Assembly: GCA_016219275.1 (NCBI GenBank)
Contig: JACRBM010000075.1
Coordinates: 1-53,607, forward strand
From: Chloroflexota bacterium
GTDB taxonomy: Bacteria; Chloroflexota; Anaerolineae; UBA4142
Direction: 5' to 3'
Length of the DNA: 53,607 nucleotides
The notes under the pieces were generated by a model. That model saw only the letters and a program-made list of their open reading frames with translations. It had not been told where the DNA came from and searched no databases. Shown piece by piece: positions 1,971 through 4,396 of the stretch. The position numbers were made by a program, and so were the translations under genes. Within the stretch, counting starts at the first letter, position 1. Each line of letters opens with the position of its first letter.

Positions 1971-3611
1971 TTACAACGATTTCGCCATGTACAATTCGCC
2001 GAGTTCAAACCCGTGCTTGCGATAGTACTCGCGCGTGCCGATGGCGGAAATCACCGCGAGCCGTTTGAATCCGGCATCACGCGCAATTTGTTCGGCGTGT
2101 TCGATCAGGCGCGCGCCCAGCCCGGTGTGTTGCGCCGCGCCCGCGCGTTCCACGCCGATTTCGAGCGCGGGTCCGTACACGTGTGCCTCGCGAATAATCG
2201 CGCAGTCGCGTAGTTCGTCGAGAATCTCATCGCGCGCGGCGTGGGGTGACGGTAGCGAGAGCCGCAAGAAACCGGCGAGCTTGTCGCGCGCAGAGACGTA
2301 ACTCGAAAAATATTCGCGCGTCGTGTCTGTGTCGTACGTGAGTGTGTCGAGCCGCAATTCGTCCGGCGAAATTTTCTCGTGGCGCACTTCACGGCAACGA
2401 ATGCACTCGCAATGCAAGCCGCGTTCTTTCAGTGCGCGTTGCGCGGCGAGACGCAGATCGGAACGTTTGCTTCCCGCCGCGATGTAACTCGCCGGAATAT
2501 CGCGAATTACGCGATTCAAGCGACAATAGCGCGGGACGATGCGTTTGCAATCCACGAGCAATTCCGTCAATTCGTCGTCGGTGTACGGACGATACTCACC
2601 GCGTTCCCAAATCGGATACAGTTCCGTCCCCTCGATCAAACTACACGGATAAATTTTCAACTCGTCGGGGCGATATGCCGGATCGTTCCACAATCGCGCA
2701 AAATCGGCGCGGTCGGATTCGGGCGTCGCGCCGAGCAGGTTCGGCATCCAATGCAAATGGAGTTTGAACCCGGCGAGACGCAGTAAACGGATCGCGCGTT
2801 TTTGTTCGGTCGTCGTTTCGCCGCGTTGGTTTAGCGCGAGGATGTTGTCATCGAGCGATTGAATGCCGAGTTGCACCTTGGTCGCGCCGAGCCAGCGCAA
2901 TCGCCGCACCTCGTCAAGTGTGATATAATCGGGTCGCGTTTCGAGCACGAGTCCCACGGCGCGATGCTCTGCGTTTTCGTTGCGCCGCTGTGCCTCTTCG
3001 AGAGTTGCGGATTCGACGCCATTCAACGCGTCGAACAATCGGCGCACGAATTTTTCTTGGTAGTGAGGCGGGTACGCCGACCACGTGCCGCCGAGCACGA
3101 GCAGTTCGATCTTGTCGGTCGCGTGTCCGTTCGTCTCGAACGATTCAAGACGCGATGTAACTTGGGTGAACGGATCGAATTTGTTTTGCGCCGCGCGTTG
3201 CACGCCCGGTTCGAGCGGCAAATAACTTTTTGGGAACCCTTTCACGTCGGGGCAAAAAATACATTTACCCGGACAAGGATACGCGGCGGTCAACACGGTG
3301 AGCGGCGCGACGCCCGACGATGTGCGAATCGGTTTGAGGCGCAGACGATTCAGGACGTGTTGATCGAACTCGATGATGCCGCGCGTGGTCATTTCGCGGT
3401 ACGCGGTGATGATCTTGTCCTGGGTCACAGTCGTCGCGCCGTCGTGGATGAGGCGAATGATGAGCGCGTTCAACTGCGCGGGCGACAAGGCGCGCGCGCG
3501 TTGCACCGTGTCGAACAGTGTGGCAAGTGCGTGCTGGTGCTTGTCTATATCGAGCGGCGTGAGATGTTTCGCGCGCCACTTGGCAAGGCGAGTTCTATTT
3601 TCGTCCAACAT
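1971..3611 (-). CDS. elp3: Elp3-family tRNA U34 carboxymethyl-modification enzyme (radical SAM + GNAT)
   Basis: Full-length Elp3 homologue of 546 residues. In eukaryotes, archaea and some bacteria Elp3 uses SAM and acetyl-CoA to make cm5U at wobble uridine 34 of tRNA. The radical-SAM cluster motif is C113-x3-C117-x2-C120 (PCPGKCIFCPD), followed by the L-x-L-G-G-T-W segment near residue 172, ETRPDYI near 224 and KVQLGIQS near 245. A second cysteine group C-x-C-x2-C sits near residues 401-406. The C-terminal GNAT domain, from about residue 450, has the acetyl-CoA loop HTGLGARL. The ATG at 3611 is chosen; a TTG 18 bases upstream is equally in frame, and neither has a good ribosome site. It is divergent from a Trm9-like methyltransferase whose expected substrate is the Elp3 product, separated by a short palindrome-filled spacer. 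Confidence 0.92.
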   Translation of the reverse strand: MLDENRTRLAKWRAKHLTPLDIDKHQHALATLFDTVQRARALSPAQLNALIIRLIHDGATTVTQDKIITAYREMTTRGIIEFDQHVLNRLRLKPIRTSSGVAPLTVLTAAYPCPGKCIFCPDVKGFPKSYLPLEPGVQRAAQNKFDPFTQVTSRLESFETNGHATDKIELLVLGGTWSAYPPHYQEKFVRRLFDALNGVESATLEEAQRRNENAEHRAVGLVLETRPDYITLDEVRRLRWLGATKVQLGIQSLDDNILALNQRGETTTEQKRAIRLLRLAGFKLHLHWMPNLLGATPESDRADFARLWNDPAYRPDELKIYPCSLIEGTELYPIWERGEYRPYTDDELTELLVDCKRIVPRYCRLNRVIRDIPASYIAAGSKRSDLRLAAQRALKERGLHCECIRCREVRHEKISPDELRLDTLTYDTDTTREYFSSYVSARDKLAGFLRLSLPSPHAARDEILDELRDCAIIREAHVYGPALEIGVERAGAAQHTGLGARLIEHAEQIARDAGFKRLAVISAIGTREYYRKHGFELGELYMAKSL

Positions 3612-3621
3612 TTTTTCAAAA

Positions 3622-3672
3622 GACCGCAAACGGCTGACGGCAGACTGCCGTCGGTGATCGGCGGTCGGCGGT
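3622..3672. repeat. Word-repeat palindrome between elp3 and the Trm9-like gene
   Basis: Repeats of the words GGCGGTC, CGGCAG and CTGCCGTC and their complements fill the divergent spacer between the two start codons. The same architecture, built from different words, occurs at many other gene boundaries here. It leaves little room for two ordinary promoters. Confidence 0.6.
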
Positions 3673-3676
3673 CATT

Positions 3677-4396
3677 GTGGATTCACGACTGGTAAATCAA
3701 CTACTCGACATCAATCGCAAATTCTATTCCGAATTCGCGCACGCGTTTTCCGAAACGCGTTCGAGCGGACAATCGCGATTGGAGCGAATTGTAGCGTACA
3801 TCGGCGATGGTGTAAAGGCGCTGGATGTTGGCTGTGGCAACGGTCGGCTCGCGGAACGCTTGGAGCGCGAATCACGCCGCGTGCAGTACGTCGGCGTAGA
3901 CGCGTCGCCGGAGTTGATCGCGATTGCGTCCGCGCATCAAGCGCGCTGGCATCACGTCGCCGCCGAGTTTCGCGTCGCCGACATTGCCGCGCCGGGCTGG
4001 GGCGCGCCGTTCGCGCGCGCGTCATTCGATCTTGCGATTGCGCTCGCCGTGTTGCATCACGTTCCCAGTTTCGAGTTGCGCGTCGCGGTTCTGCGCGAGA
4101 TTCACGCGTTGCTCAAATCCGGCGCGCGTGTGATTCTGACGAATTGGCATTTCGAGCGCAACGAACGATTGCGAAAAAAAATCGTCGCATGGCAGATGAT
4201 CGGCGTAGATGAACACGAACTCGAAGAAGGCGACGCATTGATGACATGGGAGCGCGGCGGCAAAGGATTTCGCTATTGTCATCTCGTGACGCAAAGCGAA
4301 ATGAAAAAACTTGCGGCGCAAAGCGATTTTCAAATCGTCGAACAATTTTATGCGGACGCGGACTTGAATTTATACAGTATTCTTGTGAAAACCTAA
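3677..4396 (+). CDS. Trm9-like class I SAM-dependent methyltransferase (probable tRNA cm5U34 methyl esterase-forming enzyme)
   Basis: A 239-residue class I methyltransferase. Motif I, ALDVGCGNGRLAE, is at residues 48-60, the acidic residue after strand 2 is in VGVDAS near 74, and the post-IV segment LAVLHHVP is at 123-130. What sets it apart is likeness to eukaryotic Trm9/ALKBH8 at both ends: an N-terminal Y/F-x-x-F-A-x-x-F-S-x-T-R pattern (residues 17-28) and a C-terminal R-Y-x-H-L-x-x-x-x-E-M segment (199-209). Trm9 esterifies the carboxymethyl group that Elp3 puts on U34, giving mcm5U. Its divergent neighbour here is Elp3, which strongly supports that substrate. The start is GTG. A partner such as Trm112 is not visible in the window. 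The role is inference from motif and context; a small-molecule methyltransferase is the alternative. Confidence 0.75.
   Translation: MDSRLVNQLLDINRKFYSEFAHAFSETRSSGQSRLERIVAYIGDGVKALDVGCGNGRLAERLERESRRVQYVGVDASPELIAIASAHQARWHHVAAEFRVADIAAPGWGAPFARASFDLAIALAVLHHVPSFELRVAVLREIHALLKSGARVILTNWHFERNERLRKKIVAWQMIGVDEHELEEGDALMTWERGGKGFRYCHLVTQSEMKKLAAQSDFQIVEQFYADADLNLYSILVKT

Follow-up and report, generated by a model that had tools for sequence, protein, structure and literature searches.

The locus described here raises the question of whether a bacterium can make 5-methoxycarbonylmethyluridine (mcm5U) at the wobble position (U34) of transfer RNA (tRNA) by means of two genes standing head to head; the Trm9-Trm112 reaction has been described for archaea and eukaryotes, and mcm5U is listed as an archaeal and eukaryotic nucleoside, not a bacterial one (PMC7694415). 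The window, the whole stretch of 53,607 nucleotides that was analysed, is contig 75 of a Chloroflexota genome (G000; 6.16 Mb, 97.9% complete), and it carries an elp3 gene divergent from a gene for a methyltransferase resembling Trm9. The preliminary description of this DNA had proposed that the host may make eukaryote-like mcm5U. That proposal was supported by our analysis, from which we infer mcm5U itself. We consider it highly probable that a two-gene route formed by Elp3 and a Trm9-like enzyme leads to mcm5U34, with MnmA adding the 2-thio group (s2), and that it replaces MnmE/MnmG, the route of most bacteria. It also appears likely that several phyla swapped MnmE/MnmG wholesale for an Elp3 plus Trm112-independent Trm9-type system making mcm5(s2)U34, these being the Chloroflexota class of the source genome, many Patescibacteria, Fermentibacteria and some 'Deltaproteobacteria'. 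The two genes, the family membership of their products at the level of sequence, their conserved linkage and co-occurrence, and the exclusion of MnmE/MnmG are observations, and they are presented in the sections below.

Three samples were used: a class survey of 199 genomes from 52 families, in each of which Elp3, the methyltransferase and MnmE/MnmG were scored; an order-level subset of 20 genomes, used for the MnmA and CmoB searches and containing 17 methyltransferase orthologues; and a scan of named genomes outside the class sample, comprising 80 loci with the methyltransferase family and flanks of up to 4 kb.

The divergent elp3 and methyltransferase genes

The elp3 open frame codes for 552 amino acids from a TTG start codon, or for 546 from an ATG at codon 7 (position 3611). 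The features of this gene and of the region upstream of it are the following:

1971..3629, minus strand: elp3, predicted radical S-adenosylmethionine (SAM)/GNAT enzyme carboxymethylating tRNA U34 (TIGR01211 and PDB matches)
3336..3629, minus strand: N-terminal extension of Elp3, residues 1-98, isoelectric point about 10.2 (the match to 5l7j begins at residue 100; composition)
3252..3275, minus strand: radical SAM motif of Elp3, C119-PGK-C123-IF-C126 in TTG numbering (sequence, alignment to 5l7j/6iaz)
2394..2411, minus strand: zinc-site cysteines of Elp3, C407/C409/C412, of the bacterial/archaeal type (sequence)
1974..2138, minus strand: GNAT segment that binds acetyl-CoA, residues 498-552, QHTGLGARL ... 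REYYRKHGF (Acetyltransf_1/7, Elp3 structure alignment)
3612..3676, no strand: spacer separating the two divergent genes, 65 bp long when elp3 starts at its ATG and 47 bp when it starts at the TTG

Elp3 scored 495.7 bits with the model TIGR01211 (cut-off, 350 bits), and the Pfam domains Radical_SAM, Radical_SAM_C and GNAT (Acetyltransf_1/7) were recognized in it. Its best match in the PDB was 5l7j, the Elp3 of D. mccartyi (DmcElp3; E 4.9e-116), an organism likewise belonging to the Chloroflexota, and Elp3 of M. infernus came next. DmcElp3 is thus the closest solved Elp3, and it differs from the window protein in that only the latter has the N-terminal extension. The absence of such an extension from DmcElp3 has been reported, as has the origin of the tRNA affinity of archaeal Elp3 in an N-terminal extension that binds tRNA, and the zinc-site cysteine motif is conserved among bacterial and archaeal Elp3 (PMC6367351). 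Residues E230/K325/Y327 of the acetate tunnel align, in a register counted on the PDB alignment, with E207/K302/Y304 of MinElp3, which are required for making 5-carboxymethyluridine (cm5U) (PMC13315578). The preliminary description had reported a full Elp3 with Cys113/117/120 and a GNAT domain; these are the same cysteines, counted from the ATG instead of the TTG. These results confirmed from the sequence that the window codes for a full-length tRNA-type Elp3, for which cm5U34-forming activity is predicted.

Elp3 has historically been claimed to be a protein acetyltransferase, and a function of that kind, or as another radical enzyme that does not modify tRNA, was weighed as an alternative. 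It is hard to reconcile with a score above the cut-off of a tRNA-type model, with the basic N-terminal extension and with the strict replacement of MnmE/MnmG described below, and tRNA, not histone or tubulin peptides, has been found to make bacterial and archaeal Elp3 hydrolyse acetyl-CoA (PMC6367351). We consider this alternative extremely unlikely.

The second gene starts with GTG, at a position where its relatives carry Met, and shows the following features:

3677..4396, plus strand: Trm9-like SAM-dependent methyltransferase, 239 amino acids, proposed cm5U34 carboxyl methyltransferase (Trm9 5cm2 profile matches, AlphaFold, Foldseek)
3722..3760, plus strand: Trm9-type N-terminal motif FYSEFAHAFSETR, residues 16-28 (R28 corresponds to S. 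cerevisiae Trm9 R29; TR of 5cm2 aligned)
3821..3844, plus strand: SAM-binding motif I, LDVGCGNG, residues 49-56 (G52, C53 and G54 invariant and the others nearly so in the family)
4232..4282, plus strand: Trm9-type lid hairpin, D186-A-L188-M-T-W191 ... R199-Y200-C201-H202 (model strands 186-191 and 197-202; Trm9 DVMVPW...RYRYYHL aligned)

Both the divergent position of this 239-residue methyltransferase, whose listed start is separated by 47 bp from that of elp3, and the Trm9/ALKBH8-type motifs that had been noticed at its ends were verified. The N-terminal motif reads F16-Y17-S-E-F20-A-H-A-F24-S25-E-T27-R28 and the C-terminal one R199-Y200-C-H202-L203. Residues R28, H128, W157, W172, D186, W191 and R199 were 100% identical in the 64 class methyltransferases compared, and since R28 and R199 are kept in 64/64 orthologues, the quoted motifs are more than chance. 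R28 was also kept in 37/37 members of the Patescibacterial type and in the 15/15 archaeal members with this column filled, and the generic methyltransferases that these genomes also encode lack it. Mutagenesis has shown that R29, H115, R241, Y243 and N271 of S. cerevisiae Trm9 contribute to substrate-tRNA binding (PMC5372719). The counterparts of R29, H115 and R241, namely R28, H128 and R199, are kept, H115 having a register that could correspond to either H127 or H128.

Relationship of the methyltransferase to Trm9

Pfam and NCBIfam labelled METHYLTRANSFERASE with broad SAM methyltransferase domains only, and in the NCBIfam scan none of the models, small-molecule families included, exceeded its cut-off. 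When a profile of the 17 order orthologues was compared with the PDB, Trm9 of Yarrowia (5cm2) ranked third, and it was the only one of the five proteins in the displayed alignments to extend into the C-terminal lid. With a broader profile of 30 sequences (A2), Trm9 was the best single domain, with an independent E-value of 3.5e-15 over residues 25-223 and an alignment that takes in the Thr-Arg pair near the N terminus and DVMVPW...RYRYYHL of the lid; by whole-sequence E-value it was third, after two two-domain proteins. A profile of 18 proteins from a Patescibacterial sister group (A3), whose consensus contains YNxIAxxFSxTR...W and DxxIPW...RYYHxF, placed Trm9 first outright at 2.1e-29, followed by a runner-up at 1.6e-24. 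Since the A3 profile also matched the Chloroflexota profile end to end (1.9e-55), the sister group tightens the link to Trm9. Moreover, a Trm9 fragment used as BLAST query found the methyltransferase gene as its best match in the source genome. The scoring of Trm9 versus generic families raised in the preliminary description therefore came out on the side of Trm9.

In the phylogenetic tree, all 105 ingroup rows were on one side of a moderately supported branch versus the generic methyltransferases of the genomes concerned (Shimodaira-Hasegawa-like approximate likelihood ratio test, 85; threshold, 95). Trm9 was placed among haloarchaeal and Heimdall members, on a long branch, and a branch of 1.23 lay between the Chloroflexota members and the Patescibacterial type. 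The AlphaFold model of the methyltransferase had a mean predicted local distance difference test score of 94.3 and a two-stranded lid at residues 186-191 and 197-202, and Foldseek placed 5cm2 second among PDB chains. VIA-align gave Z values of at least 8 for 1000/1000 chains; 5cm2 was not in the 50 rows shown, and this result was not used as evidence. Fold comparison by itself does not discriminate Trm9 from other proteins. Taken at the level of sequence, the motifs and profiles supported the assignment of the methyltransferase to the Trm9-type family and not to a generic neighbour.

Linkage to elp3 and exclusion of MnmE/MnmG

Divergent elp3 adjoins 15 of the 17 order orthologues of the methyltransferase; one of the two exceptions lies at a contig end, and the other has no elp3 within 1.5 kb. 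Across the class, 89 genomes had the methyltransferase, 100 had Elp3 and 88 had both. In 68 of these 88 the two genes were no more than 1.1 kb apart, and 67 of the 68 close pairs were divergent. Among the named loci, elp3 was nearby in 44/80, always divergent, and within about 1 kb in 42 cases; at L094 and L153 it was about 3 kb from the methyltransferase. The divergent pair is present in Chloroflexota, many Patescibacteria, Fermentibacteria (L100) and two loci titled 'Deltaproteobacteria' (L110, L136), and the head-to-head arrangement persists across phyla at about 30% identity. The adjacency in related genomes that had been put forward for the pair thus holds, both in close relatives and between phyla. 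Around the haloarchaeal, Heimdallarchaeota and other archaeal relatives (L151-L172), elp3 was not found in flanks of up to 4 kb.

This linkage bears on the possibility that the methyltransferase is a generic enzyme, acting on small molecules or proteins, that lies beside elp3 by chance. The broad domains assigned by Pfam would fit such an enzyme, as would the top ranks in VIA-align, occupied by METTL6 and small-molecule enzymes. A chance neighbour is not expected to stand head to head with elp3 in 67/88 class genomes and across phyla, or to co-occur with it in 88/89, and the Trm9-type motifs extend beyond the core fold into the lid. We regard a generic enzyme as very unlikely.

Within the sampled Chloroflexota phylum, no matches to the methyltransferase profile were found outside the class of the source genome. 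Among the named loci, the Chloroflexota pairs were of Anaerolineae and Caldilineaceae except for a contig titled Candidatus Aquidulcis (L093; NCBI class Limnocylindria). It contained a 70% identical methyltransferase and a full elp3, and the name or the classification of this metagenome-assembled genome (MAG) may be inconsistent.

The distribution of MnmE/MnmG was complementary to that of Elp3. Genuine MnmG or MnmE was present in 61/199 class genomes and Elp3 in 100/199, and no genome had both (Fisher p 3e-25). Counting by family, done to limit the effect of relatedness, gave Elp3 in 24/52, MnmE/G in 21/52 and both in none (p 6e-9). Single-contig genomes are included in this pattern, for example G046 with Elp3. 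The source genome had no MnmG match at the threshold used (E<=1e-10), and its MnmE matches were weak (best 3.2e-32) and below the cut-off; in the survey, the weaker listed MnmE matches cover the GTPase domain only. MnmG was also absent from 28/29 further genomes carrying the methyltransferase family, about six of which come from archaea, a group not expected to have MnmG. A search for mnmE/mnmG in the source genome had been proposed in the preliminary description, and its outcome, complete mutual exclusion with Elp3, was stronger than predicted. The best explanation of these results is that the Elp3-methyltransferase route stands in for MnmE/MnmG in these lineages.

The sole genome with an elp3-methyltransferase pair and a full MnmG was G500 (L121), a MAG titled Ignavibacteriales; the tree joins its methyltransferase to a Komeilibacteria sequence, and the gene pair may sit on a mis-binned contig. 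Another 37/199 class genomes, mainly of families f5, f10, f12, f41 and f49 and several of them more than 95% complete, had neither Elp3 nor MnmE/MnmG.

Bacteria have U34 methyltransferases of the same broad fold in CmoM and MnmM, and the window enzyme might by analogy esterify uridine 5-oxyacetic acid (cmo5U34), like CmoM, or finish 5-methylaminomethyluridine (mnm5U), like MnmM or MnmC, instead of using the product of Elp3. CmoB (TIGR00452) was above its cut-off in 0/20 order genomes, the source genome included, and MnmE/MnmG, which are required for mnm5U, were absent wherever the class has the methyltransferase. Both roles were rejected because the upstream enzymes are missing, and we attach hardly any probability to them. 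The bacterial 2-thiolase MnmA was found in the source genome and in 18/20 order genomes.

Proposed pathway and its relation to known systems

In the proposed pathway, Elp3 alone, without Elp1/2/4/5/6, would place a carboxymethyl group on C5 of the wobble uridine by means of acetyl-CoA and its [4Fe-4S]/SAM radical site, yielding cm5U34. The divergent Trm9-like methyltransferase would then bind the anticodon loop and methylate the carboxylate of cm5U34 with SAM to give mcm5U34, the substrate being held, as we propose, by R28, R199 and H128. Finally, MnmA would probably add the 2-thio group in Lys/Glu/Gln tRNAs, giving mcm5s2U34. We infer this chemistry and the tRNA targets from the biochemistry of Elp3 and Trm9.

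The methyltransferase apparently acts without Trm112, and the pathway as a whole would be independent of this protein. In the source genome, the Trm112 domain PF03966 gave one match of 29.6 bits (G000:C56:38297-38386), within a 306-amino-acid frame and not in a small stand-alone protein. It was not detected in the methyltransferase genomes G003, G005, G014, G119, G128 and G133, where a domain of 40 positions can be missed. These searches are suggestive only of Trm112 being dispensable for the methyltransferase. The absence of detectable Trm112 from many carriers is consistent with the earlier idea of one of the 'simplest' Elongator-plus-methylase systems.

Several observations weigh against the assignment to this pathway. 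The reciprocal BLAST margin was small (1.2e-6 vs 3.3e-5), and in VIA-align, with METTL6 first, many small-molecule methyltransferases aligned as well as Trm9 or better. Nineteen of the 88 class pairs were on separate contigs and one was far apart, and 12 Elp3 genomes had no methyltransferase at the cut-off, one of them (G168) owing to a gene cut by the contig end. The counterpart of Trm9 N271 was N231 in 46/64 sequences (72%), the alignment to 5cm2 stopping short of N271. The counterpart of Y243 (position 201) was C, V, A or T in the Chloroflexota branch; it was Y in 25/37 members of the Patescibacterial type.

The main serious rival arises from this substitution of Y243: the same pathway would yield a different cm5U-derived product, by methylation of an amide or hydroxylated derivative or of a different atom, so that the final base would not be mcm5U. 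The alteration of position 201 throughout the Chloroflexota branch, the long branch separating it from the Patescibacterial type, and the ability of the archaeal Elp3 route to yield 5-carbamoylmethyluridine (ncm5U), as in Thermoplasma (PMC5372719, PMC6313347), speak for it. However, the residues shared with Trm9 (both arginines, the histidine, and D and W of the lid) are invariant in the class set, and the window showed no linked gene that could carry out an additional step. We judge another product to be unlikely, and favour mcm5U34 as the product of the methyltransferase.

The eukaryotic system of Elongator with Trm9-Trm112/ALKBH8 resembles the proposed pathway in having Elp3 as catalytic subunit, in the FSxTR, HH and D..(L/M)..W / RYxH lid motifs of the methyltransferase, and in a thiolation step plausibly filled here by MnmA. 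It differs in that Elp3 is here the sole known Elongator subunit, that Trm112 is not consistently present, that the two genes are head to head, that Y243 is replaced in Chloroflexota, and that the thiolase would be MnmA instead of eukaryotic Ncs6/Ctu1. Archaea such as Haloferax and Sulfolobus likewise combine a stand-alone Elp3 with a Trm9-like methyltransferase, and in Sulfolobus elp3 and trm9 are clustered (PMC2584109), whereas archaea thiolate with NcsA-type enzymes and use Trm112. MnmE/MnmG, which make 5-carboxymethylaminomethyluridine (cmnm5U) and mnm5U, act on the same tRNA position with presumably the same decoding role, but they are unrelated to the Elp3 route in proteins and chemistry.

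According to a 2017 review, no Trm9-like gene was detectable in bacteria (PMC5372719). DmcElp3 was called a rare bacterial example in 2019 (PMC6367351), and a 2020 review placed Elp3 in one bacterial clade, direct evidence for cm5U derivatives there being lacking (PMC7663514). A 2026 paper reports Elp3 in numerous bacteria and names no bacterial methyltransferase in the passages concerned (PMC13315578). We found no description of a bacterial Elp3 and Trm9 pair in the open-access literature, and an earlier description elsewhere is possible. What we rate as new is a branch of the known Elp3/Trm9 pathway that belongs to bacteria, apparently does without Trm112 and replaces MnmEG. If the pathway operates as proposed, mcm5U would no longer be solely an archaeal and eukaryotic nucleoside, and its chemistry would be widespread in uncultured bacteria. 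MnmEG would be replaceable, with two unrelated pathways excluding each other at one tRNA position, and the two-protein system would offer a minimal, tractable model for the Elongator/ALKBH8 route of humans. Given the exclusion pattern, the functional equivalence of the two wobble pathways can be tested directly, and the Patescibacterial enzymes with a full RYYH lid bear on how Trm9 arose.

In lineages with Elp3 and without the methyltransferase, no obvious substitute partner was found among the elp3 neighbours. A histidine phosphatase gene precedes elp3 in family f11 (L083-L085), and a family 2 glycosyltransferase gene does so in f23 (L086-L088). These two lineages are expected to be natural controls, with cm5U or ncm5U only. 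In genome G205 of family f37, a different class I methyltransferase gene adjoins elp3 on the same strand (L092:2089-3081, minus strand), and its product is perhaps a divergent or substitute partner of Elp3. Genome G030 contains a second, partial frame corresponding to the C-terminal part of the methyltransferase family, downstream of the full copy (L032:3250-3576, plus strand).

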